Part shown: in pieces, positions 5,369 through 22,751 of the stretch
Layout of the letters: each line of letters starts with the position of its first letter
Position numbering within the stretch: position 1 is the first letter of the stretch
Source: a candidate division Zixibacteria bacterium SM23_81
GTDB taxonomy: Bacteria > SM23-81
NCBI GenBank assembly: GCA_001304015.1
Contig: LJUY01000008.1
Span: forward strand, 1 to 64,000
Length of the DNA: 64,000 bases
Direction: 5' to 3'
Notes under the pieces: generated by a model
Database searches by the model: none
What the model saw: only the letters and a program-made list of their open reading frames with translations
What the model was told of the DNA's origin: nothing
Made by a program: the position numbers and the translations under genes

Positions 5369-5384
5369 GTATTTAAATGAAAAG

Positions 5385-5540: not shown

Positions 5541-5586
5541 TTTGAACCTCCATAATTGGCCAATATGTTCAGTCCTGAAAGAAAAG

Positions 5587-6015
5587 TCACGTTCTTTCCC
5601 ATTTCTCAACATCGCCCCCGACAACGGTGAAGATGGGATGGGGATCAATATTGTGTGCGGAAAACAGCTGCTGGTATCTTTCAGGATCGCGCATTTTCAA
5701 TCTTTCGCAGAGCAAGTTAAATTCGTGTTTAAGTTGCCCCTGGGTTATGGGAATCTTTTTCGTTGATGCCCCGGTTGCGATTTTTCTTCGATTGAAATTG
5801 TATCCTCGCCTTCTGGATTCTCGCCATATTTCCGTTAAATAGCCAGCGATGCAATTCTGCGGCTGTTGATGCTTCTTGAACCTATCCAATTGGGGATGGT
5901 TCCTGTAGCCTTTTGTCTCCCCTTGTAAAACCTTTTGAGCCAGCAAGGACTCTCGCCAAAGCGCCACGAGGCCAACCCGATCCAGATATTTTGGATGTAT
6001 GCTCCACAATCGCAA
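5587..6015 (-). CDS. pyrimidine dimer DNA glycosylase (T4 endonuclease V-like)
   Basis: The 142-residue product starts RLWSIHPKYLDRVGLVALWR and continues with LLAQKVLQGETKGYRNHPQL, the signature of the Pyr_excise family, which excises UV-induced cyclobutane dimers and nicks the abasic site. The start is TTG at 6015, fixed by family homologues (which begin MRLWS) and by GGAG 8 bases upstream. In the T4 enzyme the N-terminal Thr amine is the nucleophile; here the residue after Met is Arg, as in the wider bacterial branch, so lyase chemistry should not be assumed. The neighbours are a zinc ribbon and a DUF523/DUF1722 gene, the latter often found near photolyase genes. Confidence 0.85.
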   Translation of the reverse strand: MRLWSIHPKYLDRVGLVALWRESLLAQKVLQGETKGYRNHPQLDRFKKHQQPQNCIAGYLTEIWRESRRRGYNFNRRKIATGASTKKIPITQGQLKHEFNLLCERLKMRDPERYQQLFSAHNIDPHPIFTVVGGDVEKWERT

Positions 6016-6061
6016 AGAAAAACTCCAAGTGCAAGTGGCATTTAGATAGTTGTCATATGAT

Positions 6062-7030: not shown

Positions 7031-7050
7031 ATCGGACCTCTGCGGGTTGG

Positions 7051-7539
7051 TTAAGGGTTGAGGACAAAAAAGGAGGCGTTTAATATAACGGCGAAACTGA
7101 CCCACAAAAGGTACGGAGCGAGCAACCAGACGGCCATCCTGGAGATGCGGGCAAAGAGGTGGATGGTTAGCCATATTGCCGTCCAGAGACAGATGATGAT
7201 CACCAGGCCGGCCAGGGGTGATCGTAGTCCGAAGAACAGGACGGACCAGAGGGTATTGAGGGCCAGCTGAAGGATGAAGACAGCCAGTGCCTTTCTGCGT
7301 TGCTGCAGATCCCCGTCGGTTCGCCAGATCAGGAAGAGGGAGATTCCCATCAACACATAGAGAGTCGTCCAGACCGGACCAAACACGCCGCTGGGCGGCG
7401 TGAAAGGTGGCTTATTCAGGGTGGCGTACCAGGTGGGCACTGCGGCTCGGGTAAAAACAGAGCCGATGAAACCGGCCATCAGACAGAGGATGATGCTGCT
7501 GATCAACTTGAAGACAACGAACCCTTTTCGTTTTTCCAT
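7051..7539 (-). CDS. tspO: TspO/MBR family tryptophan-rich sensory protein
   Basis: The 162-residue, five-TM product shows the family landmarks: WYATLNKPPFTPPSGVFGPV after the first helix, WTTLYVLMGISLFLIWR, LNTLWSVLFFGLRSP, and the closing WVSFAVILNASFF. These line the porphyrin/cholesterol binding pocket in TspO proteins, which bind or degrade porphyrins and answer light or oxygen stress. The start ATG at 7539 follows GAGAG; the 30-residue upstream extension from 7629 is very basic and not part of the fold. It precedes the DUF523/DUF1722 gene closely. Confidence 0.9.
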   Translation of the reverse strand: MEKRKGFVVFKLISSIILCLMAGFIGSVFTRAAVPTWYATLNKPPFTPPSGVFGPVWTTLYVLMGISLFLIWRTDGDLQQRRKALAVFILQLALNTLWSVLFFGLRSPLAGLVIIICLWTAIWLTIHLFARISRMAVWLLAPYLLWVSFAVILNASFFVLNP

Positions 7540-7656
7540 ATGTAATTCTCTCAAGGCGCCGTTGCGAGTGAATTCATTTTTTTCTCTGCTGATCCGTACC
7601 GTTCTTCGCTCTCGGCTTTGTGACATCAAAGGCGAACATGTTTCTCTTTGAGCTTC

Positions 7657-8091
7657 TTATTTCCCAAGAGCTTGTTGAAGGGATCTGTTTAATGCTTCGG
7701 GATCATCTGTGCCAATACGGAATTTCTTCCCATTCTTCAACAGAAGCTCAATGGCATCTAAGCCGGAGACATTCCAAAGCCAACCATGGGGGATCCGTCT
7801 GATTCCCCATCCATAATACCAGCGGTTTTTCACCTCCTGATGAGACTCGATATCTTGCAGTGGAAATTTCTTGCTAATAGCGCCGGGACCGAATCGAATG
7901 CGGAGGTGCTGCTCATCGATTTCCACTGTGAGGGTGGCAAACAGCACCAAACAAATTGCCAGGATGGCCAAGACGATCAGCGGGATCCAATTGAATTCAT
8001 AGAGATCCATGAGCAAAAGGATGAGCACCATGGCGCCGCCTATCGTGGCGAATATCACATAGCCGATTTGAGTGTGACGATACTGGGTCAT
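7657..8091 (-). CDS. membrane protein with PH-like domain, unknown function
   Basis: The product has 144 residues: two TM helices (about 10-28 and 35-53), then about 85 soluble residues beginning LTVEIDEQHLRIRFGPGAIS and containing FPLQDIESHQEVKNRWYYGW. The strand pattern and the GPG-turn resemble small bacterial PH-domain membrane proteins. ATG at 8091 with GAGG 9 bases upstream. It appears to be a single-gene unit. Function unknown. Confidence 0.7.
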   Translation of the reverse strand: MTQYRHTQIGYVIFATIGGAMVLILLLMDLYEFNWIPLIVLAILAICLVLFATLTVEIDEQHLRIRFGPGAISKKFPLQDIESHQEVKNRWYYGWGIRRIPHGWLWNVSGLDAIELLLKNGKKFRIGTDDPEALNRSLQQALGK

Positions 8092-8121
8092 AATCGTCTA
8101 CCTCAATAGTTTGGTCAAAAG

Positions 8122-8730
8122 TTATATTTTCTTAGTGAAGAGAATGGAAAGACTGTCCAGGTAATATGTGCGGGGCGTCTCCCATGTCCCCCAGATGCCA
8201 ACTATGACATATACCTCATCCTCTGCGGCTGTGGTCACATTACATGTATAGCTCTTCTTCAGCCACCGGTAGCCCACATCCGTGCTGGAACCATTACCAG
8301 TGTGATCCTGATAGACGAGATCGTCTCTAGTTTCAGGTCTTTGGGGTACAACGCCGGTGATGATGGTCCACAAGTTGGCCATGCCGAAGTCCGCGCTGGC
8401 AAAGGCATAGCTGATGTTCACGTCATAGGAGCAATTGGATTGGACCGCAAAGGGATGCTCTATCCAGATTTTTCCAGCGTCGTTCCAATTCTCCAGGTAG
8501 AACTTTACAGCGGTGCTCCCAGCTTTGGCCATCTCTTGGGTGCGTCGAATTGACCATGTCAAAAGCGTGTCGCCCAGCTCTAGATCTATACCCCGCGCCT
8601 GCCATTGCTCCATGCCGTCTTCAAAGGAAAAGAGATGGGCGTCTGTCGCTGGCGGGGATTCAGTCGATTTGTCCTCACAACCGCAAAAAAGTACTAGCGT
8701 CCCGAGCACGAGATAGAGAAAGGGTCTCAT
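8122..8730 (-). CDS. lipoprotein with beta-rich (CBM-like) body
   Basis: The product has 202 residues. The first 18 form a lipoprotein signal with lipobox LFCGC, so it should be lipid-anchored in the envelope. The body opens FSFEDGMEQWQARG and ends TYYLDSLSILFTKK, with alternating strand segments such as AVKFYLENWNDAGKIWIEHP; this is the look of a carbohydrate-binding-type jelly roll, although I cannot name a family. ATG at 8730, GGAG 8 bases upstream. No obvious partner. Confidence 0.75.
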   Translation of the reverse strand: MRPFLYLVLGTLVLFCGCEDKSTESPPATDAHLFSFEDGMEQWQARGIDLELGDTLLTWSIRRTQEMAKAGSTAVKFYLENWNDAGKIWIEHPFAVQSNCSYDVNISYAFASADFGMANLWTIITGVVPQRPETRDDLVYQDHTGNGSSTDVGYRWLKKSYTCNVTTAAEDEVYVIVGIWGTWETPRTYYLDSLSILFTKKI

Positions 8731-8774
8731 GATGAAAGCTCCAGAGAAAATTGGAGAATCGTATGGGGGTGGCG

Positions 8775-9548
8775 CTACCGATTCTGTTGTCTTTTATGCG
8801 CCCTCACCTGAACACTGGTGATTTTTCCGGCCAACCTGTGGTCCAGCCCCGGCTCTACGTATTTGTGTTCGGCCACGATGGTCACATCCCGGAAGCCTGC
8901 TTTCCGGATGGTGTCTAGATATTCTTTTTTCTCTAGGGCTCCGGCGATGCAGCAGGCCCAAGCCTCAAAACTCTGCCGGATATCTTCGGGAAGCTTTCCC
9001 TCGGTGACCAGGTCGGATATCAGCATCCTTCCTTGGGGCTTTAAAACCCGAAACGCCTCTTTGAAGGTGGCTAACTTGTCGGGGGAGAGGTTGATGACGC
9101 AGTTGCTGATGATGATGTCGACACTGTTGTCTTCCACGGGTAAATTCTCTATTTCGCCCAGACGGAACTCGACATTCTGATAGTTGTCCTGTTTGGCATT
9201 TTCTTGGGCCCTGTCGATCATCTCCGGTGTCATGTCCACACCGATGACTTTTCCCCTTTGGCCAACTTTTGGGGACGCCAGGAAAGCGTCCAGTCCTGTG
9301 CCGCAACCCAGGTCCAATACGGTCTGACCCTCTTTCAGCTCGGCCAGTGCCGTGGGATTACCGCACCCCAGCCCCATGACCACGTCCGGCGGAAGTGAGC
9401 AGATTTCTTTCTCAGAATACCCCATGGACTTCGCTTGCTCGATGATCTCCGGAGAGCAACAACTGGTCGGACAACAGGGCTCTTTTTTAGATGCGATCTT
9501 CCCATAACGATCCTGGACGAATTTCTTGACCTCTTTTTCGTTCTTCAT
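8775..9548 (-). CDS. arsM: arsenite S-adenosylmethionine methyltransferase ArsM
   Basis: The 257-residue product has a class I methyltransferase core ([34 protein letters not shown]) and the ArsM cysteines: CCPTSCC near residue 25-31 in the N-terminal region, [12 protein letters not shown] in the middle and [11 protein letters not shown] later. These bind As(III), which is methylated to volatile or less charged products. Length fits the family. No arsR or other ars gene lies next to it here, so its regulation is not visible. ATG at 9548 behind AGAGG. Confidence 0.9.
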
Positions 9549-9619
9549 AATACCTCTCCAGCTTTTAACAGATCGTGTCTGACCCTTTTGGCTTTCTTCA
9601 ATGACTTAAGTCGGCAATG

Positions 9620-10129
9620 TCACCTTCGCCCAATCCTGTCGGAAACATGCTGTTCCAGTGGCTTCCACATTTTCCGACTTGCCGTCTGGTAACCGAGCTT
9701 TTTGTAGAAAGCAAACGCCTCTTTATTGAAATCGCAGACATTCAGCTTAACGTGACGCACCTTTTTGTCCAGCGCCCATCGATGAGCGTGCTCCATGAGG
9801 GATCGACCAACTCCATGCCGGCGAAATCTCTTCCGCACCACGAGATTGTCGACGACGGCATAACGTCGTGGTACCATGATGGGAATGTCAGAGGCCTCTG
9901 GTATGAGAACGTGGACGAAGCCCATAATGTGACCCTCGCATTCGGCGACGAGCAGAGCGGCATTCTCGTCCGCCAGGATACTGGTAAAATGGACTTTTCT
10001 CCAAGCATCGCCAGCGGTATTCTGAAACACGTGGGGGAGAACCTGGCGATGTAGAATCTCCACTTCTTGGAAAGCTTTGGACAGTTCCTAGCAATCCCTC
10101 TGGGTTGACTCACGAATTGAAAAGTCCAT
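9620..10129 (-). pseudogene. GNAT acetyltransferase interrupted by an in-frame amber codon
   Basis: From an ATG at 10129 the frame reads MDFSIRESTQRDC, then TAG (10088-10090), then ELSKAFQEVEILHRQVLPHV and on to a stop at 9620, 168 residues in all if the TAG is ignored. The part before the TAG matches the usual opening of GNAT proteins (an IR-x-A-T-x-x-D motif, then EL), so the gene was full length and a nonsense change sits at codon 14. The body is otherwise intact, with the acetyl-CoA motif VRKRFRRHGVGRSLMEHA and the closing KLGYQTASRKMWKPL. Translation could still begin at the GTG at 10063 (147 residues), but that form lacks the first strand of the fold. It is therefore a recent pseudogene, a readthrough gene or a 5'-truncated gene. 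Confidence 0.65.
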
Positions 10130-10203
10130 ATGTTTTGTCTTTCTCTGGATCGTTCCTGCCCAATGTTTTGGATTTTGCCAAACGAGAGGGATCTTATTGC
10201 CCG

Positions 10204-10761
10204 CTAAAGGAGATGTTCAAGGAGTATCTTTATTCCCATGGCGATCAAGATGAAACCGCCGACGAGCTCGATCTTGTTCTCGAAAAAGTGACCTAACCTA
10301 TTGCCGATAAAGGCTCCAAGGAAGGATAATAAAAAGGTCACGAGTCCGATGAGTATGGCCGGCGTGATGATGGCAATGTTGATAAATGCGAAGCTGACGC
10401 CGACGGCTAAAGCATCGATGCTTGTGGCCACAGATAAGATGAGCAAAACATAAACATCCAGGGGATTCATCTCCTTTTTCTGCGACTCCATCTGCAACGA
10501 CTCGTAAGCCATCTTGCCGCCTATCAGACTCAGCAGTCCGAATGCGACCCAATGGTCCACGCCGGAGATGAAATCTTTCAGGCTCATTCCCGCCAGCCAA
10601 CCGATCACGGGCATGGCCGCCTGAAATGATCCGAAAAAGAGGCCAATTCTCAAAGCATGTCCGATTCTGAGCCGCTTTATGGCGATGCCGCTGGTGATGG
10701 ACACGGCCAAGGCATCCATAGCCAAGCCAAATGCGATGAATAGAATGGTGATGGTGTTCAT
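10204..10761 (-). CDS. mntP: MntP-type manganese efflux pump
   Basis: The product has 185 residues and six TM helices in two repeats of three. The first repeat begins ITILFIAFGLAMDALAVSI and the second SVATSIDALAVGVSFAFIN; the paired MDA-A and IDA-A acidic motifs mark the transport path of the MntP family, which exports Mn(II). ATG at 10761 with GGAG 7 bases upstream. It lies 3 bases from the next methyltransferase gene, so the two are cotranscribed. No upstream yybP-like manganese riboswitch was recognised. Confidence 0.88.
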   Translation of the reverse strand: MNTITILFIAFGLAMDALAVSITSGIAIKRLRIGHALRIGLFFGSFQAAMPVIGWLAGMSLKDFISGVDHWVAFGLLSLIGGKMAYESLQMESQKKEMNPLDVYVLLILSVATSIDALAVGVSFAFINIAIITPAILIGLVTFLLSFLGAFIGNRLGHFFENKIELVGGFILIAMGIKILLEHLL

Positions 10762-10764
10762 AAA

Positions 10765-11412
10765 CTATCTCCGGAAAACGCCCTCGACCTCTGCGTGTCG
10801 TTCGAATGGACCATCACCGTGCCTGTGCCTGGGCCCCAGGCCTTCCCAGTGGTCGACCACCTTGAAGTCGCAGAAGAGAGAAAGGATTTCCCCTTCTTCC
10901 AGGTGGGTTCGGAAGTGCCCCCGCTCATCTGTAAATGAGTTCTTTCCGCTGGATTTCCATTCCCGAGAACGTCGGTTGCGAGCAAAGGACGGGTCCTTGG
11001 TGGTGAATGCTCTGGCAAATACGAGGCTTCCTGTCCGTGTCCACAACAGAATCTTTTCCAGAAGCAGCTCGATGGACGCCCAGGATAAGATTTGAATCAG
11101 TCCGAATATCAGAATGCCCGAGAAGAAGTCAGTTTCAGGTTCGAAGGTTTCGAAGCTCGATTGGTATGTTCTTATGTCGAGATTCTCCTTCGCTGCCATG
11201 GCCGATACCGTCTCGATGGCCACTTTTGACGAATCGATGGCGTCCACCTTAAAGCCCTCTCTGGCCAGAAACAATGCATGTCGTCCCTGGCCAGCTCCGA
11301 TATCTAAGATTCTGTGAGACTTATCAAGCAAATGGCGATGATGTTTGAGGAGCGGCTCCGGCTCGGCGCCGAAGTAGCTTTTTGTTTTGCAATATACCTC
11401 ATCGTACCGCAT
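10765..11412 (-). CDS. class I SAM-dependent methyltransferase (TehB-like)
   Basis: The product has 215 residues. Motif I is RILDIGAGQGRHALFLAREG, motif II KVDAIDSSKVAIE, and the region LIFGLIQILSWASIELLLEK corresponds to motif IV-V. The opening (RYDEVYCKTKSYFGAEPEP) and length fit the tellurite-resistance/TehB-like group, but the substrate cannot be told. Directly upstream of mntP (3-base gap), suggesting an operon. Confidence 0.82.
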   Translation of the reverse strand: MRYDEVYCKTKSYFGAEPEPLLKHHRHLLDKSHRILDIGAGQGRHALFLAREGFKVDAIDSSKVAIETVSAMAAKENLDIRTYQSSFETFEPETDFFSGILIFGLIQILSWASIELLLEKILLWTRTGSLVFARAFTTKDPSFARNRRSREWKSSGKNSFTDERGHFRTHLEEGEILSLFCDFKVVDHWEGLGPRHRHGDGPFERHAEVEGVFRR

Positions 11413-11435
11413 CCTGAAGAGTCCTCAACCTTTCC

Positions 11436-12038
11436 CTATTTGCCTTTGCGCTGTTTTAAAAGTGATGGCAGATGCATCCTCTTATGAAAAGGTCTTCTGT
11501 ATGGATATATCTCTTTGCTGACAGATCTAATATCTTCTATCGAATAAAACGCTTTTGGGTTAAATCTTCTGATGATTCCAACGACCCTTTGAAGGTCACC
11601 GCGATTTATCATAGTATAAATGACATTGACGTGTCCAGTTGCACCATGAGCGTCAACACTGGTGACTCCAAAACTGGCGGATTTAAGAAAGTCAATCAAT
11701 TCAGATGAATCTTTTCCGGTAATAATTCGTACCAGCAGGACTCCCATGGCTAATTTCTCTTCCAGGTACATTCCTACATAAGTTCCTGTAGCAAAGCCGC
11801 CGGCATAGGCAATATAACAGGCAATATTGGATAAATTCCTCATGATCTGTCCGATGGCCAGAAGCCAGATGAGCAATTCAAAAAATCCGACCAACGGAGC
11901 AAGATACTTTGTGCCTCTGGAAACAAAAATAATGCGGATAGTTCCTAGGCTGACGTCAAAGACCCGAGCTATAAAGATAAGCAGCGGTAAGATAAGCCAC
12001 GTGTATATATCGGTACCGGTCAGTGCTAAAAAGGCCAT
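11436..12038 (-). CDS. DUF2179/DUF5698 membrane protein (UPF0316)
   Basis: The product has about 200 residues. Three TM helices in the first half (LILPLLIFIARVFDVSLGTI carries the family's RVxDVSLGT motif) are followed by a soluble domain with GVTSVDAHGATGHVNVIY and RRFNPKAFYSIEDI, the DUF2179 (YitT C-terminal-like) ligand-binding-type fold. I prefer the ATG at 12038, with GGGAG 9 bases upstream, to the ATG at 12047 that overlaps the site. Function unknown; the family may sense or move a small molecule. Confidence 0.82.
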   Translation of the reverse strand: MAFLALTGTDIYTWLILPLLIFIARVFDVSLGTIRIIFVSRGTKYLAPLVGFFELLIWLLAIGQIMRNLSNIACYIAYAGGFATGTYVGMYLEEKLAMGVLLVRIITGKDSSELIDFLKSASFGVTSVDAHGATGHVNVIYTMINRGDLQRVVGIIRRFNPKAFYSIEDIRSVSKEIYPYRRPFHKRMHLPSLLKQRKGK

Positions 12039-12105
12039 GGTGATCATCTCCCTTATGGCGGTTAACTGTTATGTGAAATCGTAGGTTAGGGGGCGTTTAC
12101 ATCGA

Positions 12106-12696
12106 TTATTCTCTAATGAAGTAGCGCATAATTGGCCGCGTTTCCGATCTCCGGGCCACCTCTGTAAATCCTACCTTGCGGAATGTAGAAGCAAGACCGT
12201 GATATGCAAAGACGTCGGGCATATTAGCTTTTTTGGGCTCCACTGGATATCCCTCGACAATTCTAGCCCCCTGTTCTTGGGCATAAGCCACCGCAGCCTC
12301 CAGAAGTGCCATTGAAACACCTTTATGGCGATAGGATTTGGCCACCACGAAACACACCACTGACCAGACCGGTTTGTGGTCGACTCTCTTCAATATCCGC
12401 GATCGCTCCAAAACCGGATATGATTCTCGAGGGCCAACTGAACACCACGCGATGGGCTGTCCATCCGCATAGGCGAGGAGTCCGGGCACTTCACCGGAAT
12501 CGACGAGTTTCTTGAGAGCTTTTCTATTCCCCTCGCCCTTTTGCTTCTCAAACTCGGAGCGTTTCAGTCGCCACCACATGCACCAGCAGCCGCCACAAGC
12601 CCCTCGCGGTCCAAACAGCGTTTCCAGATCTGGCCAGCGCTCAGGAGTAAGGGGGTGGAAATCCAGATGAGGGAGAGGTTCTGTTTGAGAGGGCAT
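12106..12696 (-). CDS. GNAT family N-acetyltransferase
   Basis: The product has 196 residues. ACGGCWCMWWRLKRSEFE near the N-terminus and QPIAWCSVGPRESYP in the centre match a known GNAT subgroup; the CoA-binding stretch is SYRHKGVSMALLEAAVAYAQ. ATG at 12696 with GGGAGG upstream. Substrate not predictable. Confidence 0.85.
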   Translation of the reverse strand: MPSQTEPLPHLDFHPLTPERWPDLETLFGPRGACGGCWCMWWRLKRSEFEKQKGEGNRKALKKLVDSGEVPGLLAYADGQPIAWCSVGPRESYPVLERSRILKRVDHKPVWSVVCFVVAKSYRHKGVSMALLEAAVAYAQEQGARIVEGYPVEPKKANMPDVFAYHGLASTFRKVGFTEVARRSETRPIMRYFIRE

Positions 12697-12760
12697 CGGT
12701 TTTTTCCTCCCAAGAAAGGAGTCCGAAATTTGTGTAGAGATGCAAAATATGACAGTAATA

Positions 12761-13142
12761 CCTGCGCTTGCAGACAGCTCACAAAAGTGGGTTCTTATAG
12801 ATTCTGATTAGGACGAGGTCCCTACCTCCTACTTTCGTAAGAATAAGCTTCGTGTGAATGACAGTACGTAAGAAAAGCCATGATTGTTTAGAAATCCAGG
12901 ATACGAGCATCAAGAACGACAGACGAGTTTCGTAACGAGCTCCGAAACCGATAAACGACTAACTATATTTTTGGTCATGCCTGCGCATGCAGGCATCTCA
13001 TAAAACAGGAGTCTTTACAGATTTTGGCAAGAACAAGAATCCTGCTCCCCGCTCCCCGCATACGCGGGGATAGGCTTCGCGGGGATAAGTTCCCACTTTC
13101 GTGGGGATAAACTTTGCAGGAATGACAGAAAGAAAAACGGCC
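12761..13142. repeat. gene-free stretch with two diverged copies of an intergenic repeat
   Basis: The gap 12697-13213 has no gene. One copy starts at 12761 (CCTGCGCTTGCAG) and another at 12980 (CCTGCGCATGCAGG, a hairpin with a GCAT loop); both continue with CTCA-AAA-GGG-TCTTA-AGA-like sequence and end in AATGACAG. The second copy also holds three tandem CGGGGATA units (about 13071-13111). This is the style of dispersed, hairpin-forming intergenic repeats. Confidence 0.6.
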
Positions 13143-13213
13143 ATGTTATTCGCATGAATATATTGGGTGCTTCCTAGAGCTCTTATAATACCCAAATTTG
13201 AGGCCATGAAATT

Positions 13214-13747
13214 TTACTCTTTCCGTGTGAAGTGATTCTCAATGTACAACTCAAACTCTTTCTCAGGGGCGGCCAGATCAAAAATCTCGGCAAATTCATC
13301 GTCGTTGAGAATGTGACAGGTTATTCTCCCTCGCCAACCTGGAGGAATATTTTCTATGCTCTCCGTCAAAAAGATGAAAGTCTTGCCATCGCTGGCCAGG
13401 GTATCGAGGACATACTGGTTAACAAAGCCCTCCACATGGAATTGTCGCCAGACGAACGTATCTCTGATGCCATCGTGGCTGATAAAACCCAAATCCTGGT
13501 GCACCTCTCCCTTCGGGTTTTGCTCCTGAGGTTCATAGATGGCCCTGTTTGTCACCTGGAGAAAATTTTCCTCCAGAACAAATTGATACTCTCGATCCCC
13601 AGTGGAGATGCCAGAACATCCCTTTCCCGTGCTCGTCCACGCCCCGGCGAAAAACCTAAAAGGCTCCCAGGGATCTTGTTTATCGTCTGTTTGTGCAAAG
13701 AGGATGCTGGGTAATAGAACTAAGAAGATAAGAAACTTTTTATTCAT
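13214..13747 (-). CDS. secreted DUF1579/nitrobindin-like beta-barrel protein
   Basis: The product has 177 residues. A signal peptide (KKFLIFLVLLPSILFAQ) precedes a domain that opens DPWEPFRFFAGAWTSTGKG, a motif shared by lipocalin-like DUF1579 and nitrobindin-type barrels (F-x-G-x-W), followed by regularly spaced strands (EYQFVLEENFLQVTNRAIYE, FIFLTESIENIPPGWRGRIT). ATG at 13747 with GGGAGG 7 bases upstream. Ligand unknown. Confidence 0.75.
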   Translation of the reverse strand: MNKKFLIFLVLLPSILFAQTDDKQDPWEPFRFFAGAWTSTGKGCSGISTGDREYQFVLEENFLQVTNRAIYEPQEQNPKGEVHQDLGFISHDGIRDTFVWRQFHVEGFVNQYVLDTLASDGKTFIFLTESIENIPPGWRGRITCHILNDDEFAEIFDLAAPEKEFELYIENHFTRKE

Positions 13748-13844
13748 GGGGAATCCTCCCTGTGATTATTACCAGGCCCGTAAGTTTTAAAAACCTGGCA
13801 AGTGGTAGAGAGATATAAGATCCATGGGGATAAACGTTTTAATG

Positions 13845-14912
13845 TCACTGCGATAACAATCTGTCAGGGTATTTCAAGCGAATTTTCTGGGCACGCCTTT
13901 TTAATTTTCTGGCCTCTTCTATTCTCCCAAATTTCTGGAACAGCGCTGCCAAATTCTCTAAAACAACCGCCACCTCAAGATGGTCAGGCCCCAAGGTTTT
14001 CTCAAATATCGTCAAAGCCCACTCAAGAATCGGCTCTATTTCCTCATACTTACCCTGAGCATAGTATGATGCTGCCAAAAAATTGAGCGCGGTTGCCACG
14101 CTAGCATGATTAATCCCATGTACTTTCTTGACTATCGTCAGTACCCGTAGGTATAGCGCTTCACATTGTGCGTATTTGCCTTGGACTCTATAGAGCGCTG
14201 CCAGCTTGTAAAGTTGCGTGACCATATCGGTATGATACTTCCGCAGGTTCTTCTGGCATATTTTCAGTGTTCGTTTGAGAATAGATTCCGACTCTTCATA
14301 TTCGCCCCAAGATTTGTAGAGTCCTGACAGATTGTTTAGGGTAGTTATAAGGCTTAAATCATCTGGTCCAGTAATCTTTTCACGTATTGTCAATGCTTGT
14401 TTATAGAGGTGCTCGGCCTGTTCAAATTTATTCTGAGCACCATATATTACCGCCAGGTTGTTCAAGATAGTGGCCAAATATGGATGCTCTGATCCCAGGG
14501 CTTTTTGACAAATTGACAGTGCCCGTTTGTAGAGCGATTCAGCTTCTTCATGTTTACCAAGGTCTATAAGGATTCTAGCGAGATAGTTGAGGGAAGTTAA
14601 TATCTTAAGATCTTCTGGCCCAAAGGTTCGTTCGGCAACTTGCAGTGCCTCTTCGTAGATCTCAACTGCTTCTGAAGGTCGCCTCTGTTTGTTAAGCGCT
14701 TCGGCCTGATGCATCAATTTCTCCCAACGTTTGGTCATTTTGTATTCATATCGCGATTCATAAAGCGTCGTCGAGGGCAGCAGACCAAATGCAGTGCAGG
14801 TCTCAAGGAAAAGCTCTCCCAGTATTTTGAATACCCAGCCCATTAAGAAGAAAAAACCTTCAATAACCTTTCTTGAGCTGAATTTTTCTATGTTGGCGAT
14901 GTGGGTTTGCAT
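13845..14912 (-). CDS. tetratricopeptide-repeat protein (kinesin-light-chain type)
   Basis: The product has 355 residues. After a hydrophobic stretch (about 17-45, VIEGFFFLMGWVFKILGELF) come about six 42-residue TPRs of the kinesin-light-chain type, each with the form A-x-x-Y-x-x-A-L-x-I-x-E-K-x-x-G-x-x-H-x-x-x-A-x-x-L-x-x-L-A (for example YKRALSICQKALGSEHPYLA). Such repeats mediate protein binding. The start is the ATG at 14912, with no clear ribosome binding site. The binding partner is unknown. Confidence 0.82.
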   Translation of the reverse strand: MQTHIANIEKFSSRKVIEGFFFLMGWVFKILGELFLETCTAFGLLPSTTLYESRYEYKMTKRWEKLMHQAEALNKQRRPSEAVEIYEEALQVAERTFGPEDLKILTSLNYLARILIDLGKHEEAESLYKRALSICQKALGSEHPYLATILNNLAVIYGAQNKFEQAEHLYKQALTIREKITGPDDLSLITTLNNLSGLYKSWGEYEESESILKRTLKICQKNLRKYHTDMVTQLYKLAALYRVQGKYAQCEALYLRVLTIVKKVHGINHASVATALNFLAASYYAQGKYEEIEPILEWALTIFEKTLGPDHLEVAVVLENLAALFQKFGRIEEARKLKRRAQKIRLKYPDRLLSQ

Positions 14913-14966
14913 TATGGGTCCAGAACATTCAAAGACATAAGGTTTATGAACTTTCTTCTCAGCTCG

Positions 14967-15128
14967 TCACGCCACTTTCTCCTTTGCCAGTACCCGCACA
15001 TCCATGGGCGTGCCTTTCCGTCCATCTCGGATCAAGGAGATGGCTTCCTTTGGACACTGGCCGATGCAGGCCCCGCAGGGGGATATCTTGGTTGAGGGTG
15101 ATGACGGGCAGGCCGAGAGCGTTTTCAT
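14967..15128 (-). pseudogene. ferredoxin-like remnant
   Basis: This 53-codon frame contains CGACIGQCPKEAISLIRDG, half of a classical 4Fe-4S motif (C-x2-C-x3-C-P, with the first cysteine of the quartet absent), followed by a basic tail. Nothing resembling the first half of a ferredoxin is fused to it. It is most simply the 3' piece of a decayed ferredoxin gene; a very short real gene cannot be excluded. Confidence 0.45.
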
Positions 15129-15212
15129 AAAGTGCTTATCTCCGCCTGATGAGAGGTTCGGCAACTATGCGCGGCATAATAAAACTTTTACCAACTGCTC
15201 AGGGCAACTGTT

Positions 15213-15250
15213 ACAAAAACAAAAAGACGGCCCATCCGCTGGACCGCCGT
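15213..15250 (-). terminator. terminator of the GlmL-type operon
   Basis: On the minus strand ACGGC...GCCGT closes a hairpin of about 24 bases (15227-15250), followed by CTTTTTGTTTTTG. It lies about 65 bases after the stop of the last gene of the operon that starts at 21323. Confidence 0.75.
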
Positions 15251-15312: not shown

Positions 15313-16440
15313 CTACTTCTCGATGAGCTCCACGTTGGCCCGGGGCAGAATCACCTTCTCCCCATTCTCCAGCTCCACCTCCGCAACTCTCACTTTGGCC
15401 TCTGTGGGCAGCTTCTGGAGGGCAGCAGGAAGATCGGTCACCGTGGCCAATATGCCGAAGTAGGGCTGGCGGATGATGCGGATCTGGCTGCCGATAACCA
15501 TTCCCTCGCTCTCCTTTTTCTTCTCGGTCTCTTTTTTGACGGTGGTCTCATCCAGGGGAATGACTACCTCAGGACGGATGACTCCAGCCCGGATCTGGGT
15601 GGCGCCGTTAATGGAGGCTTTCTTGCCCTCTAGGTTCTTCAAGAGCTGGAACGTCCTCTGGGCCATACGGATTTTGCCGAAGCCCTCGGTGATCACCAAG
15701 GTGGTGCCCAGCTCCTCGTGGCCGGTGATGGCCACGCCGAGATCGTACCCCAGAATCTCCTTGACATCCTGGTCGCTGAACCCGCCCACCACCACTCCTT
15801 TAGCCCGCAGCTTGATGGCTTTACGCAGCGCCGGCAGCTCGATCAAAGAACCACCCACCAGCACTTTTCCTCGGAACCCCTCATTGATCTCGGATTCGGT
15901 GAGGACCTCATCGGGTCCGGAGGAAGCCATGGCCAGCTCGCCATAAGCCTCTCCACCGAGCCCAAAAATTCCCTGAATGAAAGAGGCCGTTGTCTCCACC
16001 GCTACGCCCTCCTTGGGGAAGACCTCGGTCACCATCCCGTCGATGTAGGCTTTCACCTCCACGGGGATGGGCGCTTCCCGGATCAGCACCTGACCGGTCA
16101 CTTGCGACACACTTTCCACTGTGCCCGCCACCGGCGATTTATAGGTGTTCTTGAACAGGCCGAAGAGTCCGCCACTTCGCGCCAGAGGTTCAACTTTCTC
16201 GATCTCATCTCCCTCTTTCTTGAGCATGAACTCCTTGATGTCCGCGGGCTCGATGCTCAGGAGGTTGGCCACGTTGATGGGTTGCACATTGCCGGGCAGG
16301 TCGGTTTTGGCCACTACTTGGTCCGCGCTGACCGCGTCACCCTCTGTGACCAGCACCTCTCCGGGAAGAGGCAAACGGCGTTCCTTGCGCAGCATAGTCC
16401 TTTCGGCAACCCTCAATCCTGGCGTATAGGCATGGGCCAC
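15313..16440 (-). CDS. barrel-sandwich (lipoyl-like) protein paired with GlmL, unknown function
   Basis: The product has 375 residues. The N-terminal part has two lipoyl/RnfC-like sandwich stretches: LPLPGEVLVTEGDAVSADQV with VQPINVANLLSI, then YKSPVAGTVESVSQVTGQVL with VEVKAYIDGMVTEVFPKEG. The biotin/lipoate lysine motif is absent, so it is probably not lipoylated. The middle (KGVVVGGFSDQDVKEILGYD, AITGHEELGTTLVITEGFG) looks like an alpha/beta domain. The C-terminus (IGSQIRIIRQPYFGILATV ... EKVILPRANVELIEK) has a KOW/SH3-like feel. Start GTG at 16440 behind AGGAGG, 6 bases away. It follows glmL by about 380 bases, and a terminator follows it. I do not recognise an assigned function. Confidence 0.8.
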   Translation of the reverse strand: MAHAYTPGLRVAERTMLRKERRLPLPGEVLVTEGDAVSADQVVAKTDLPGNVQPINVANLLSIEPADIKEFMLKKEGDEIEKVEPLARSGGLFGLFKNTYKSPVAGTVESVSQVTGQVLIREAPIPVEVKAYIDGMVTEVFPKEGVAVETTASFIQGIFGLGGEAYGELAMASSGPDEVLTESEINEGFRGKVLVGGSLIELPALRKAIKLRAKGVVVGGFSDQDVKEILGYDLGVAITGHEELGTTLVITEGFGKIRMAQRTFQLLKNLEGKKASINGATQIRAGVIRPEVVIPLDETTVKKETEKKKESEGMVIGSQIRIIRQPYFGILATVTDLPAALQKLPTEAKVRVAEVELENGEKVILPRANVELIEK

Positions 16441-16819
16441 AGGTGGCCTCCTTTCCGTAAAAATACCATTGCAAAATGCAAATTGTAAAGTTTAAATTGG
16501 AAATTTGAAAATCGTGATCGGCGTATTCGGTAATCGTTAATCGGTGATCGTTAAAAAAGCCGGGATCCGAGAATCGGGGTCCGCTAAAACATCATAGCAA
16601 ATTTTAAATTTTAAATTGACCCCACTCCACCACGGCCGACTGCCAACTGCTAACATTTCTTTTATTGCCATTACTATTCTTCTTTTGCTATCTCCGGCTT
16701 ACTGCCACCCAACACAATCTTCAACCAGGGCAAGGGAACCTCGCCCCTACAATTTTATTATATCTATTGCTTATTGCCATTGCAATTGCCATTTTCCCCA
16801 GCTCTCTCAACTCTCTCAA
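16441..16819. repeat. gene-free gap with AT-rich repeat-like sequence
   Basis: Between the GlmL-type gene and its partner lies about 380 bases without a gene. It contains TTTAAATTGGAAATTTGAAA-like runs, a diverged relative of the 597-618 repeat (CGGTAATCGTTAATCGGTGA at 16527-16546), and TTGCCATT / CTCTCAACTCTCTCAAC direct repeats. A repeat insertion inside the operon is the likely explanation. Confidence 0.55.
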
Positions 16820-18625
16820 CTATTCCGGATATGAATCCATTGCCTTGTTCCAGGCGCGGAGCTTTGTGACCCTCTCGTTCCGATCGGCTGGAAGCTCAAA
16901 GGGCTGGCGTCCCCTGGCGTCTATGATGATGCCCGTGACACCGCCGGGAGCCTTCGTTTCCACGTTCTTGCCACGGCCAGCGCCGATATCGAAGCCGCGA
17001 GCCGGCTCGATGTTGACGGCCACAGGCTGACCATACGGAGCGGGTAGAACGAAAAAGTCCCCGTACATCACCTCTCGCTCCGTCGTCTCTCCACCGGGAA
17101 CGGAGATGGAGATCTTCATGCAGGGCTTGCCGGGTTTGCCGGTTCCCACCGGGGCGATGCAGGTCCCTAGGCGGATGAGGCAATCCTTGGTGAACACTTC
17201 CGTGGCCGCTTTCTTGTGAACCGTCGCCAGAACACCCAGTTGAGGCATCATGAAGATGCTGTCCACGGCTAACTGGGTGATGCCTTCCGGCAGGAAGGCA
17301 TCGATCAGCATGTGGGCGGCCTGCTGCCGGCGCGGCGCGTGGGAGAGCGCCCCACCGCTGCCCACCAGCATATCTAGGCTCATCATGTTCACCAGGGTCT
17401 GGCCGCTGGCTTTCTGGTCGAAAGTGTCCGAGACGGTGCGCTGCTGCTGGATGCCCTTCAGGCCAACGGCAAAGGATTTATGCTGGATGAAAGCCAACCG
17501 GAGAGCCTCCCGGGCGATGGCCTGTTCCACCATCAGCTCCTCCAGGGATTGGGGAATGGTGGTGGGGCGGATCATCTTGTTACCGATCCGGTTGCGCAAA
17601 TCGGCCTCATCCATATCGAACGGTACCCAGCGCATGATGTTTGCCATCCCGGCCTCGGCCAGAACGTTGGAAACGCTGTAGCTCATTCCTAAATTAGCGC
17701 TGACGGTGCGGTTAAATTTCTTTTGAAAGACGGAGAAAATATCCGTGGTGGCTCCGCCAATATCCACGCCGACCACCTCGATATTCTCCATCTCAGCGAT
17801 GGTCTGGATGATACTCCCCACGGCGCCCGGGGTGGGCATGATGGGCACGTCGGTCCAGGACATCAATTTGTTGTAACCAGGAGCCTGTGCCATGACGTGC
17901 TCCATGAACAGATCATGGATCTTCTCGCGAGCCGGACCAAGATTTTCCCGCTCTAAAACCGGGCGTAAGTTCTCCACCACATCCAGGGAGGTCTTCTCCT
18001 GCAGGATAGTCTCGATGTTCTGTGTGGCGTCTTTGTTGCCAGCATAGATGACGGGAAGCTGGTAGCCTATGCCCAAACGTGGCCGAGGATTGGCTGCCTC
18101 AACGAGCTCTGCCAGCTCCACCACATGAGATATGGTACCTCCGTCGATACCGCCCGAGAGAAGGATCATATCCGGACGCAGGTGCCGGATGCGCTCGATT
18201 CTCTCGTGGGGCAAACGTCCGTCGTTGGAGGCCAAGACATCCATAACGATAGCTCCAGCGCCTAGCGCCGCCCTCTCGGCGCTCTCAGCGGTCATGCTCT
18301 TGACCACACCGGTGACCATCATCTGGAGGCCGCCGCCGGCGCTGCTGGTGGATAGGAACAAATCGGCACCTCGCTTGCCCTCCTGGGGGGTGATGATTTT
18401 CTCCCCTTCCAGCAGGGTTCGACCGGACAACTCCTCCACCTCCCGGATGGCGTTCAAAGCCCCTTTGGTCACGTCTTCCACGGGGGCCTCCACTGTGGTG
18501 GGTGCCTCTCCGCGAACGATGAGGCGATACTCGCCATCTCGTTTTTCTATGAGGATTGCCTTGGTGGTGGTGCTTCCGCAATCGGTGGCCAGTACGGACT
18601 GAACGTTTTGTAAGTCCTTGCTCAT
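16820..18625 (-). CDS. GlmL/MutL-family ASKHA ATPase without glutamate mutase partners
   Basis: The product has 601 residues. The N-terminus carries the phosphate-1 motif of the actin/HSP70/sugar-kinase fold (VLATDCGSTTTKAILIE); later come LFLSTSSAGGGLQMMVTGVV, DMILLSGGIDGGTISHVVEL and VVGVDIGGATTDIFSVF (phosphate-2), all typical of the MutL/GlmL family. That family was named for its place beside the cobalamin-dependent glutamate mutase genes, where it is thought to protect or reactivate the enzyme. Neither mutase subunit is present here; the partners are instead two uncharacterised proteins. Start ATG at 18625 overlaps the stop of the small upstream gene by 4 bases, so translation is coupled. 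Confidence 0.88.
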   Translation of the reverse strand: MSKDLQNVQSVLATDCGSTTTKAILIEKRDGEYRLIVRGEAPTTVEAPVEDVTKGALNAIREVEELSGRTLLEGEKIITPQEGKRGADLFLSTSSAGGGLQMMVTGVVKSMTAESAERAALGAGAIVMDVLASNDGRLPHERIERIRHLRPDMILLSGGIDGGTISHVVELAELVEAANPRPRLGIGYQLPVIYAGNKDATQNIETILQEKTSLDVVENLRPVLERENLGPAREKIHDLFMEHVMAQAPGYNKLMSWTDVPIMPTPGAVGSIIQTIAEMENIEVVGVDIGGATTDIFSVFQKKFNRTVSANLGMSYSVSNVLAEAGMANIMRWVPFDMDEADLRNRIGNKMIRPTTIPQSLEELMVEQAIAREALRLAFIQHKSFAVGLKGIQQQRTVSDTFDQKASGQTLVNMMSLDMLVGSGGALSHAPRRQQAAHMLIDAFLPEGITQLAVDSIFMMPQLGVLATVHKKAATEVFTKDCLIRLGTCIAPVGTGKPGKPCMKISISVPGGETTEREVMYGDFFVLPAPYGQPVAVNIEPARGFDIGAGRGKNVETKAPGGVTGIIIDARGRQPFELPADRNERVTKLRAWNKAMDSYPE

Positions 18626-18951
18626 CGCCGCCCCCTTTTGCGCTCTTTCTTCGCTCTTTTTATCTCCTGATCTCTCAAGATCTGTTCCTCCTGGAGCCTC
18701 TCGATTCTCTGTATGAGAAACTCGATGTTGTCGCGGTTCTCTATCATATCAGTAACTTCTTCATAATCTTTGAAGTTGAAGATGGGTTGGATGATGGGAT
18801 TAAAGAAGACCAGCAGCTGGCTGCCAAGAAAGCTGAGCGGCTTGGTCGACTCCAACAGGAAGATGGCCATGGCTGAGACGCGCAGGTCCACAATGCGTCG
18901 TGCTACCTTCTCCAACAGCTCCGCCTGCCGTGTGTTTAGATCAACAGCCAC
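18622..18951 (-). CDS. small conserved helical protein coupled to GlmL
   Basis: The product has 109 residues from a GTG at 18951, preceded by GGGGAG about 8 bases upstream; the start overlaps the end of the membrane-protein gene (stop at 18941). It begins VDLNTRQAELLEKVARRIVD, has the motif FLLESTKPLSFLGSQLLVFF and ends in a long charged helix (ENRDNIEFLIQRIERLQEEQ) with a very basic tail. The middle stretch is moderately hydrophobic and could lie on or in the membrane. Its 4-bp ATGA overlap with the GlmL gene is strong evidence that the two act together. No function assigned. Confidence 0.8.
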   Translation of the reverse strand: MAVDLNTRQAELLEKVARRIVDLRVSAMAIFLLESTKPLSFLGSQLLVFFNPIIQPIFNFKDYEEVTDMIENRDNIEFLIQRIERLQEEQILRDQEIKRAKKERKRGRR

Positions 18952-19504
18952 AGTCCATTTTCTCCCCGATGAAGTTGAGGATCTCCTCTCTTTTTCCGCC
19001 GAAGGGGAGATAGACTCCACGGAAGCTCTCCAGCCTCGAGGGTCTCGGATATGGGCTTAGGTGAACCCCCTTTTGGCCCACGTAATGTTTCTTCAGCACG
19101 GACCAATTGCGCTTCTTGCTGGAGAGGAGTCCACGAACTGAGACACTCTCAGGGCCCAGCCGATAGTGCGTGGGAAAGAAAAAGCTGGCCAGCGATCCCA
19201 AAAGGATGAGAGCCGACAGTGAGGCCCATGCGATCCCCAACCATGAGGAGATGGCCCAGACGACCACGACGAGAAGGAGAATCACGGCCGCTGAGCGCCA
19301 AAAGCTTTGGCTTAGGGGCCAGACGGTCCAGCTCAGAGATGGGTTTATTTCGGTCCCATGAGTGGCATCTCCGTTCTGTTTCCGGATGCCCTCCGAAGAT
19401 TTAGCCTGTGTTGATGAAAAAGTCGCTCCCATGTTTCGTTGAGTGCTAGCGCCCACCGTTCGTTCTTTTCCTTGACCCCGCAAAAGCTTATTCAAGCTTG
19501 ACAA
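18941..19504 (-). CDS. membrane protein with PH-like C-terminal domain
   Basis: The product has 187 residues from a TTG at 19504 (AAGG 6 bases upstream; overlaps the preceding stop by 17 bases); an ATG at 19432 would drop 24 low-complexity residues. Two TM helices (about 72-88 and 91-109; SAAVILLLVVVVWAISSWLG) are followed by HYRLGPESVSVRGLLSSKKR and a predicted small beta-domain of the bacterial PH type. It ends GEKMDCGC, within the start region of the next gene. Part of the five-gene GlmL-type operon. Function unknown. Confidence 0.72.
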   Translation of the reverse strand: MSSLNKLLRGQGKERTVGASTQRNMGATFSSTQAKSSEGIRKQNGDATHGTEINPSLSWTVWPLSQSFWRSAAVILLLVVVVWAISSWLGIAWASLSALILLGSLASFFFPTHYRLGPESVSVRGLLSSKKRNWSVLKKHYVGQKGVHLSPYPRPSRLESFRGVYLPFGGKREEILNFIGEKMDCGC

Positions 19505-21323
19505 CTTGACCTTCTTGCACGGTTAATATCGAGGCCTCATCATTGGCACCGTTGTTCTTGGCGAAGGTAATTTTGCCGGTCAGGCCAGGAAAACGTTCGG
19601 TGTGAGAGAGAAACTGACGCATCCCCTCTCGATCCAGGATTTTCTGTTGCACACCTTGGAGGACAAGCCGGGCACAATCGTAACTGAAAACGGCTACCTT
19701 GCCCGGTTTTTTGCCATGGCGAATTTCATAGTCAGCGGCAAAGCGCGAATATTCTTTGGTGAAAAGCTCCTCGGAGAAGTCGGTGGCAAAGACAACTCCC
19801 TCTAGATAGTGACCTCCAATGCGCATTGCCTCCTGGCTTCCCCAACCGCTGGTGCCCAGGATGCGAGTCTCGATGCGGTGAAAGGCGATTTGGGGGGCTA
19901 TCATGCCAGCCTCCTCGGGGTAAGCCGGGATGAAGATACCGTCGATGAAGACCCTCCTCTCCTCGGGAGGAATTGAGTCGGGCTCTTCGGGATTCAGTGT
20001 CGTGGGCAATTGGTCCAGACCCATCACGCTATCGTCTTGAGCTTGCCTGAGGAGCCGGATTCGGGTTAACTGGTTTTTAAAATCGGTGGCCCCAACCTGA
20101 TACCACGCTACTGTCAGAATCTCAGCCCCACGTTCTTGAGCCTCTCGGGAGAATCCCTCTACGGCGGCATTGCCGTATTCGTCCCTGGGGGCCAACAAGG
20201 CAAACTGTCGCATGCCTAGCGCATCTGTTGCGTAAGCTGCCATCTTCTCGCCCAGTACATGAGCAGCCACACTCCGCTGAAATGTGAACTTGCCGATGGT
20301 CGAGATCTCTCCCTCCGAGGCAGTTGGCGTAATGAGTGGCACTCTGTGACAGTCGCTGACGGCTCCTGCGCCAACGGCGGTCGCGCTGAGCAGGGGGCCG
20401 ATGATAGCCAGGGCACCTTCCTGATTAATAAGAGCCCTGGTGACCAGCAGAGCTTCCACTGCGGAGGCCTTGGAGTCTTTCACCTTTAGCCTGACTTTTG
20501 TGTCCCAGAGAGTGTTGTGCTCCTCGACAGCCTGCTGGACACCGCGGTGCAACTCCTCCCCATAGCTGGCTAACGGGCCGGATAAAGGACAGACGACGCC
20601 GATGTTCACAGTCTGTAGAGGTTTCTGAGCCGCAGCTGTCCTGATCTTGTCCGCCTCAGAAACGAGATCACTGTTTGGAAAGAGGGTGAGGATCCGCTCC
20701 GCCGCCGCCACCGCTTCTTCTCTATGGTCAGCGGCGAGCTCCCGTTGTGCTATTTCCAATAGAATCCTCGGGCTCAAGGCATCATTTGGTAAGCCGTCAT
20801 AGAGTTTAGACAGCTGCGATAATGAGAGCTCAGAGGAGATGAGGACGCGAAGACAATCCCTGGCCAGATTCCCTAAGGCGGGAACGTCTGTGTTCCTGAT
20901 AACCTGGCGGAACTGATCGGCGGCGCGCCAGAAGTTCCCCTGGCGATAGTAACAGTTTCCTAGAACGTAATGGGCGTTATCCAGATAGGTGCTGTGTCCA
21001 AATTTCTTAAGAAGGGTCTGCAGGTTTTCAATGGCCTGATTATAATTTTGCAGCCAATAATAGCATTTGGCCTGCATGAGCAGTGACGCTGTGAACCGTC
21101 TGTGGCTCGGAAAATCCCGAAGTAATCCACGAAAGCCGATAAGCGCCCGGTAGTAGTCTGCATCCCGATAGCTTTCAACAGCCTTTTGAAACAGCCTTTC
21201 GGGATCCTCTCCAGAAATTATTTCCTCTCCTGCGGGAGATTTTCCCATGAGGCACAAGGCTATTAGCAAAATGGCCAATGCCAAACGGCAGGGTATCGAA
21301 AAACAAAAGCAGTTTTTTCTCAT
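19488..21323 (-). CDS. TPR plus periplasmic-binding-protein (Peripla_BP_6) secreted protein
   Basis: The product has 611 residues (ATG at 21323; a longer form from 21371 is possible). A signal peptide (RLALAILLIALCLMGKSP) is followed by TPR/Sel1-like helices (about 35-220, with LFQKAVESYRDADYYRALIG and YVLGNCYYRQGNFWRAADQF) and then a type-I periplasmic binding domain (about 238-600: VNIGVVCPLSGPLASYGEEL, ALAIIGPLLSATAVGAGAVS, QFALLAPRDEYGNAAVEGFS). The TPR-plus-binding-domain layout recalls LpoA-type and other envelope regulators, but no ABC transporter genes are nearby. First gene of the GlmL-type operon, overlapping the next start by 17 bases. Confidence 0.83.
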   Translation of the reverse strand: MRKNCFCFSIPCRLALAILLIALCLMGKSPAGEEIISGEDPERLFQKAVESYRDADYYRALIGFRGLLRDFPSHRRFTASLLMQAKCYYWLQNYNQAIENLQTLLKKFGHSTYLDNAHYVLGNCYYRQGNFWRAADQFRQVIRNTDVPALGNLARDCLRVLISSELSLSQLSKLYDGLPNDALSPRILLEIAQRELAADHREEAVAAAERILTLFPNSDLVSEADKIRTAAAQKPLQTVNIGVVCPLSGPLASYGEELHRGVQQAVEEHNTLWDTKVRLKVKDSKASAVEALLVTRALINQEGALAIIGPLLSATAVGAGAVSDCHRVPLITPTASEGEISTIGKFTFQRSVAAHVLGEKMAAYATDALGMRQFALLAPRDEYGNAAVEGFSREAQERGAEILTVAWYQVGATDFKNQLTRIRLLRQAQDDSVMGLDQLPTTLNPEEPDSIPPEERRVFIDGIFIPAYPEEAGMIAPQIAFHRIETRILGTSGWGSQEAMRIGGHYLEGVVFATDFSEELFTKEYSRFAADYEIRHGKKPGKVAVFSYDCARLVLQGVQQKILDREGMRQFLSHTERFPGLTGKITFAKNNGANDEASILTVQEGQVVKLE

Positions 21324-21450
21324 GGCTCCACAAAAAAAATCGAGGTGGAAATGCCCTGTCCCTCTTCGCATTAGAAAACGGACAGCACCTCGATAATCCT
21401 CGCGTTCATGTGGTCACCGACGTGCCTGGCCGAAGCACAAACCGAGGGCG

Positions 21451-21951
21451 TCACTCATTAAACGAAAACTTGCCGAAATCCTCTGGATTAATTTTCTTCA
21501 GGCGCTCTCGTAAACTTTGAGCTCTATCTTCCTCGCTGAGCCCCGTTTTTTTCCGATCAGCCTCCAAGACGTGGTTGGCCACATATATAGGCGCGTCACA
21601 GCGAAGGGCGAGGGCGATAGAATCGCTGGGGCGCGCGTCGATAGTGAGCAGAGAATTTTCCCGCTCTACGTAAATTTGGGCGTAAAAGGTCTGATCCCGC
21701 AAATCGTTGATAACCACCTTAATGACTTTGCCGTCGAACCCATCGATGATCAATTTCATAAGATCATGAGTCAAAGGGCGCTTAATGCTGAGATCGGCCA
21801 ATTTCATGGCGATGGCTGCGGCTTCTGCATGACCAATCCAGATGGGCAAAACGCGTTTTCCTTCGTCTTGAGTTTCTGCAAGAACCACAACAGGGGAATT
21901 AGTTCCCATATCGATGGCTAATCCGCTGACATACATCTGTCGCATAATCAT
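21451..21951 (-). CDS. bifunctional nuclease family protein (DUF151)
   Basis: The product has 166 residues. It opens MYVSGLAIDMGTNSPVVVLA and continues with RVLPIWIGHAEAAAIAMKL, LTHDLMKLIIDGFDGKVIKV and SLLTIDARPSDSIALALRCD, the full set of DUF151 motifs; family members show DNase and RNase activity in plants and are widespread in bacteria. The C-terminal 30 residues are a charged extension. Start ATG at 21951 (an ATG at 21945 is also possible). It stands between the DUF3307 gene and the GlmL-type operon. Confidence 0.9.
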   Translation of the reverse strand: MIMRQMYVSGLAIDMGTNSPVVVLAETQDEGKRVLPIWIGHAEAAAIAMKLADLSIKRPLTHDLMKLIIDGFDGKVIKVVINDLRDQTFYAQIYVERENSLLTIDARPSDSIALALRCDAPIYVANHVLEADRKKTGLSEEDRAQSLRERLKKINPEDFGKFSFNE

Positions 21952-21984
21952 GAACTCTCTTTCTGGTCGCAGAAGTTGACGAGT

Positions 21985-22698
21985 CTATTTCGCTCCGAAG
22001 ATGGCGGCCCAAGCCCCGGCGATAATGGCGATGATGGAGCCCAGGCCGAACTCCCATCGTGAGAAAGTTCTCTTGCTGGCGAACAATGAAAAACCAACTC
22101 GGGGCAAAAAGATCAGGGGGCTCAGGAGAAAGAGCCTTCCCCCCCCGGCCACAATTGTTGTGAGCATCCATCTCTCAGCATAAGCCAACATTCGCCAGGG
22201 GGATGATTGATCAGCTGCAAATTCCAACTTCTCCGGAGAGATGGCCTTGTGAATGTAAAAACAGATCAGTGGACTTCCCCACACGGAGATGACGTATGCG
22301 ATGCCCAGCTTAACCAGGGGAACACTGGCCGCGAGGTCCTGAGCTATGGCCCTTATCTGAGGGATTCGGTTCAGCAAGAAGCCGATTAGGACCACTGAGC
22401 CGATATGAAGCGCTTGGTCTAGAAGAAAATAAGCTAGGCGATCTTTACGTCCGCCACCGACGAGGATAAGCTTGCCCTTGTCAATAGCGATGTGGGAGAG
22501 CCACAAAATGAACAGGCCACCCCATACTGCCGCCATCTTCAAGAAAGGTTTGGCCAACAATATGGCCACCAGTCCGAAGATTGTGCCGTGGAGGAAAACG
22601 CCCCAACCTTTTTCTTTCTTGACCGCGAAGACCGAGTCCGTCTGGAGAGGGAAGTCGGCGATAAGATGGGCCAGCAATAACCTCCACAAGAGGGCCAT
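21985..22698 (-). CDS. DUF3307 membrane protein
   Basis: The product has 237 residues and about seven hydrophobic segments. The family's opening motif is clear: LLLAHLIADFPLQTDSVFAV, followed by HGTIFGLVAILL and LSHIAIDKGKLILVGGGRKD. Its histidines and aspartates (HLIADF, SHIAID) are the conserved features. The ATG at 22698 has GGGAG upstream and matches the family start; the longer frame from 22746 would begin at or before the transcription start. Function unknown. Confidence 0.85.
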   Translation of the reverse strand: MALLWRLLLAHLIADFPLQTDSVFAVKKEKGWGVFLHGTIFGLVAILLAKPFLKMAAVWGGLFILWLSHIAIDKGKLILVGGGRKDRLAYFLLDQALHIGSVVLIGFLLNRIPQIRAIAQDLAASVPLVKLGIAYVISVWGSPLICFYIHKAISPEKLEFAADQSSPWRMLAYAERWMLTTIVAGGGRLFLLSPLIFLPRVGFSLFASKRTFSRWEFGLGSIIAIIAGAWAAIFGAK

Positions 22699-22751
22699 AT
22701 GTGCATCTCCCAACCAAAACAGACCAGACCTGAGCCCTCGGCACAAAGCAA

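Follow-up and report, generated by a model that had tools for sequence, protein, structure and literature searches.

An ATPase of the MutL type, acting with a partner protein that has predicted swivelling and KOW/SH3-like domains, may belong to an undescribed membrane machine present in many phyla, in which it would energise or re-set a complex of four transmembrane proteins. The genes were found in a window of 64,000 nucleotides from the candidate division Zixibacteria bacterium SM23_81 (assembly GCA_001304015.1, contig LJUY01000008.1, positions 1 to 64,000 of the forward strand). A machine made of the ATPase and a 375-residue partner, working on a membrane complex of the proteins denoted c9, c8, c10 and c11, is the best explanation of the sequence data, and we judge its chances to be about even; the wider proposal, of an ATP-driven machine of a new kind shared by many phyla, is held more tentatively, at somewhat less than even. 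The core genes are listed below, with starts taken from a mechanical list of open reading frames (ORFs).

18941 to 19504, minus strand: membrane protein of 187 residues, with one or two transmembrane (TM) segments and a C-terminal half resembling a bacterial PH domain
18622 to 18951, minus strand: small protein of 109 residues, with a conserved hydrophobic LESxKPLSFxGSQ stretch (alignment of homologues)
16820 to 18625, minus strand: ASKHA ATPase of 601 residues, of the long MutL (PF13941) clade (Pfam, tree, ATP motifs)
15313 to 16440, minus strand: partner protein of 375 residues (predicted structure, fold matches, fusions)
3985 to 5286, minus strand: c9, 433 residues, start codon uncertain (profile match 1.7e-156)
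3289 to 3969, minus strand: c8, polytopic membrane protein of 226 residues, about 5–6 TM segments (profile match 1.4e-90)
2406 to 3302, minus strand: c10, 298 residues, a TM segment, a Rossmann-like domain of about 225 residues and a second TM segment (profile match 6.4e-108)
1696 to 2385, minus strand: c11, polytopic membrane protein of 229 residues, about 4–6 TM segments (profile match 7.3e-86)

The c8 to c11 families were found by clustering the neighbours of 94 loci, and their members were then located in the window by profile search. All four lie at 1696–5286 in the conserved order c9-c8-c10-c11, on the same strand as the ATPase and 10 kb downstream; they had been missed in the original prediction, which took the ATPase, the 375-residue, 109-residue and PH-like proteins and an upstream TPR/periplasmic-binding protein as the unit. 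Eisenbacteria, Fermentibacteria, Latescibacterota, Planctomycetota and Zixibacteria all show the order PH-like, 109-residue, ATPase, 375-residue, c9, c8, c10, c11, and variants of it occur in Marinimicrobia, Nitrospirales, WOR-3 and Bacillota. The order is also seen on long or chromosome-level contigs (three loci), so mis-binning is not its cause. Two Bacillota loci have two tandem ATPase-375 pairs adjoining a single c9-c8-c10-c11 module. Where the module stands alone its four genes are usually kept together; the neighbours of 24 such loci were read, and they share no extra gene of clear meaning that would point to a function.

The linkage is matched by co-occurrence. Across 290 genomes, chosen as relatives and mostly from different families, DUF6754 (the marker domain of c9) is present in 79 and a strong MutL match in 83. 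Setting aside seven genomes with only a short form of the ATPase, 74 have both the long ATPase and DUF6754 and 209 have neither, with the long ATPase lacking DUF6754 in two and DUF6754 lacking the long ATPase in five (Fisher p ~1e-60, a nominal value, the genomes being related). The two genomes with the long ATPase only are fragmented and 85–90% complete. At least two copies of DUF6754 are found in 36 of the 79 genomes, with up to seven, whereas the long ATPase is mostly present once; this is as expected of a shared ATPase, and several membrane modules in a genome may be served by the one ATPase.

The c9 protein is a full match to DUF6754 (PF20539), a family without assigned function: the domain, encoded at 4048–4800 of the window, scores 409 bits against a gathering score of 27, and a c9 homologue scores 410 bits. 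Topology prediction gives c9 an N-terminal TM segment or signal, an extracytoplasmic Fn3 domain, a TM segment, the cytoplasmic DUF6754 and a further TM segment. By the charge pattern, DUF6754 is predicted to lie inside the cytoplasm and the c10 domain outside it, and both the ATPase and the 375-residue protein are predicted to have no TM segment; this arrangement suggests a cytoplasmic, ATP-driven machine that would act through DUF6754. Neither Pfam nor NCBIfam has a family for c8, c10 or c11. For the c10 domain the model, of high confidence (pLDDT 95), is Rossmann-like, with no clear relative in a fold search (best Z 9.9, MT0777); c8 and c11 have no solved relative by sequence, c9 has one only for Fn3, and the folds offer no clear lead to function. 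A weak match (E 0.084) of the c9 DUF6754 to the eIF-2B-related/MtnA family, around the motif QLPFFVAACDYT, is a possible fold lead. The literature searched gave no description of a fixed link between DUF6754, c8, c10, c11 and the long ATPase, nor any paper that names DUF6754 or PF13941, most subscription journals being outside the reach of that search.

The ATPase had been predicted to be a GlmL-family protein, and this assignment needs revision. It matches PF13941 (MutL) over its full length, positions 1–450 of 450, at 428 bits (cut-off 27), and shares the ATP motifs of GlmL (the methylaspartate mutase accessory protein, NF040745) and Or-4 (ornithine degradation, NF040744). However, it falls below the curated cut-offs for GlmL (234.6 bits; cut-off 475), for the wider GlmL family TIGR01319 (162.8; 204) and for Or-4 of the ornithine aminomutase system (220.9; 600), scoring less than half the cut-off for GlmL and Or-4, and its C-terminus extends about 120 residues further. 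In a maximum-likelihood tree a long branch (support 94/99) sets the ten short members apart, and the window ATPase groups with long and fused members, outside the clade of 445–510-residue GlmL/Or-4 proteins; the program warns of long branches meeting at the short/long split, so that the exact position of the root is unsure. The long ATPases thus form, on the sequence evidence, a clade separate from GlmL and Or-4. No solved relative of the ATPase was found by sequence.

The family name of PF13941 derives from glutamate mutase, and this is one reason to consider a first alternative: the ATPase would reactivate some B12-dependent mutase whose gene lies elsewhere, such as methylmalonyl-CoA mutase, and the membrane module would be no more than a frequent neighbour. 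In other genomes, used as controls, several short members lie between GlmS-like and GlmE-like genes and others beside OraS/OraE-like genes (named by eye from sequence), and the SM23_81 genome, which encodes one long MutL protein, holds several methylmalonyl-CoA mutase and B12-binding genes. Against this, MeaB, which usually partners that mutase, is encoded on the mutase contigs themselves (C99 and C45), and DUF6754 occurs in 74 of 76 genomes with the long form but in none of the seven with the short form only. A glutamate mutase elsewhere in the genome was also considered and rejected: no match to its E subunit (PF06368) was found in the 3.07-Mb, 92.6% complete assembly. Nor was the ornithine/lysine aminomutase subunit (PF09043) matched in the genome, although the same family was matched in no control genome either. 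Unlike GlmL and Or-4, the window ATPase is associated with a predicted swivelling/KOW partner and a membrane module. We regard a B12-mutase reactivase as distinctly unlikely; the ATPase probably powers a membrane machine rather than a glutamate mutase. The earlier proposals of a client other than glutamate mutase, perhaps in the envelope, are borne out to this extent: the genome has no PF06368 match, and the sequence linkage and co-occurrence with the DUF6754 module favour a membrane client.

The phosphate-binding motifs bear on a second alternative: instead of cycling ATP to remodel a client, the ATPase would support an envelope machine structurally, as a cytoplasmic ring or scaffold of the PilM/FtsA type. 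Such a role would suit the ASKHA fold, the small membrane-associated partners and a module with extracytoplasmic domains. The full-length match is to the MutL family, however, and not to PilM/FtsA. Among 93 long-clade homologues of at least 540 residues the ATP motifs are kept in 86–92, with the ASKHA phosphate-1 motif in 91 and phosphate-2 in 92; motifs so nearly invariant speak for ATP cycling, though they are compatible with a structural role. A scaffold is rather unlikely on balance.

The 375-residue protein was proposed earlier as the partner of the ATPase, and here the prediction is supported. In 57 of the 70 named loci where this could be tested, its gene comes immediately downstream of that of the ATPase, and in several genomes and families ATPase paralogues of about 860–1015 residues carry the 375-residue regions at their C-terminus; natural fusions of this kind speak for the two acting together. 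A barrel-sandwich part, as described earlier, is predicted for the N-terminal region. In the AlphaFold model (mean pLDDT 88) this is followed by a swivelling, beta/beta/alpha-like domain at about 150–297 and a C-terminal KOW/SH3-like domain at 313–375. Residues 150–297 match the swivelling folds of UPF0107, rifampin phosphotransferase and RraA (Z 8.2–8.8), DdrA itself being absent from the matches listed, and the C-terminal domain has matches with Z up to 9.4. Fold matches of this size can reflect common arrangements, and the domain names are best read as leads.

A lipoyl or biotin carrier function for the 375-residue protein was rejected: the modifiable-lysine motif (MKM or DKA) is present in 4 of 72 homologues by a crude pattern test, and the match to Biotin_lipoyl is below cut-off. 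The general lack of this motif also counts against a third alternative, in which the system would be an accessory of metabolism linked to glycine cleavage and lipoylation. That idea draws on a GcvP-type gene upstream in 18 named loci, often with gcvT and gcvH, and on an LplA-type gene after c11 in several; other lineages, however, have cdsA, a bifunctional nuclease or nothing constant at that place, and no gcv gene stands beside the cluster in the window. We consider it very improbable. At 18 loci the genes directly upstream of the cluster are glycine cleavage genes (gcvT, gcvH, gcvPA, gcvPB), and in several lineages an lplA-type gene lies downstream of c11.

The smaller proteins also keep company with the pair. 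Homologues of the 109-residue protein adjoin the ATPase and 375-residue genes in 44 of 59 testable named loci, and its LESxKPLSFxGSQ stretch is possibly a membrane hairpin. PH-like homologues were found in 30 loci; only a few members of this family match Pfam bPH, and weakly. Linkage places the 109-residue protein in the ATPase-375 set, and often the PH-like protein as well. As to the linkage of its other genes to the ATPase, the original prediction stands for the 375-residue and 109-residue genes, strongly linked in many phyla, and often for the PH-like gene, but not for the TPR gene.

The mechanism that we propose is as follows. The ATPase and the 375-residue protein would work in the cytoplasm as a machine of two parts, an ASKHA ATPase and a protein with a predicted swivelling domain, probably anchored to the inner membrane by the 109-residue and PH-like proteins. 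Its client would be the membrane complex of c9 (Fn3 and DUF6754), c8, c10 and c11, which ATP hydrolysis may remodel, assemble or re-set through the cytoplasmic DUF6754, the change being passed on to the extracytoplasmic Fn3 and Rossmann-like domains. Physical contact with the module and a reactivase-like mode of action are inferred, the latter from a working analogue, the diol/glycerol dehydratase reactivases (DdrAB/GdrAB), which combine an ASKHA-type ATPase with a swivelling domain, as the pair here may do. The alpha subunit of the glycerol dehydratase reactivase consists of ATPase, insert, linker and swivelling domains, and a contact between subunits is loosened when ATP is hydrolysed (PMC7674605). 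In those reactivases a small beta subunit accompanies a single polypeptide that includes the insert and linker domains; here there are two proteins, with extra predicted barrel-sandwich and KOW parts and a putative membrane-linked client. The likeness is offered as an analogy of parts, and membership of that family is not claimed.

Several observations weigh against such a machine. The two halves of the cluster are 10 kb apart in the window. The ATPase-375 fusions do not adjoin the membrane module in the loci read, and the pair may have other clients too. The swivelling-fold matches are modest and scattered over unrelated enzymes. Among the five genomes with DUF6754 only, two rather complete ones, G010 and the single-contig G061, have the module without the ATPase, G010 keeping the 375-residue protein; these are either real exceptions or assembly losses. 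Nearly all of the genomes compared are metagenome bins.

Some features lie beside these subjects. At nine fusion loci no c9-c11 module is adjacent, and another client is possible. In Zixibacteria-like genomes (nine loci) an extra secreted protein of about 260 residues (c28), with no Pfam family, is encoded between the ATPase and 375-residue genes. The halves of the cluster in the window are separated, at 5287–15225, by about ten minus-strand genes that look unrelated (methyltransferases, acetyltransferases, MntP-like, TspO-like, TPR). The remaining features of the five-gene stretch are:

19488 to 21371, minus strand: secreted protein of 627 residues with TPR and Peripla_BP_6 (LppC/LpoA-like) domains (Pfam; the start given in the original prediction is 21323)
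16757 to 16785, minus strand: promoter-like match within the gap of 379 bp that precedes the 375-residue gene (10/12 consensus positions; a consensus match only)
15226 to 15248, minus strand: terminator-like hairpin after the 375-residue gene, a 9-pair stem followed by TTTTTGTTTT (T run)

The five minus-strand genes are all present in the ORF list in the order predicted, with overlaps from the coordinates of 17, 11 and 4 bases among the first four, and the predicted terminator after the last gene corresponds to this hairpin with its T run. Conservation across phyla rules out chance ORFs. An alternative start would give the 109-residue protein 132 residues; the 109-residue start gives the 11-base overlap, as in the nearest relative. 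The ATPase and 375-residue genes are 379 bases apart, and because this gap holds promoter-like matches a single five-gene transcript is only putative. The TPR/periplasmic-binding gene occurs at the same place only in relatives of the window and a few others, and was rejected as a core member. It shares TPRs and a Peripla_BP_6/LppC-like domain with LpoA/LppC, but is here a lineage-specific neighbour, with no penicillin-binding protein in the cluster. The region upstream, at 21451–22746, holds two genes, one encoding a bifunctional-nuclease domain and one DUF3307, that some relatives keep together with the cluster.

The long MutL proteins have been grouped with GlmL in one Pfam family, and their genomic context points elsewhere. 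If the proposal is true, the range of reactivase-type ATPases extends to membrane complexes, and the seven or eight genes conserved together over many little-studied phyla offer a defined target for study. Of the module proteins, three are without a Pfam or NCBIfam family and the fourth has only a DUF, so that first functional data could be obtained for all of them together.

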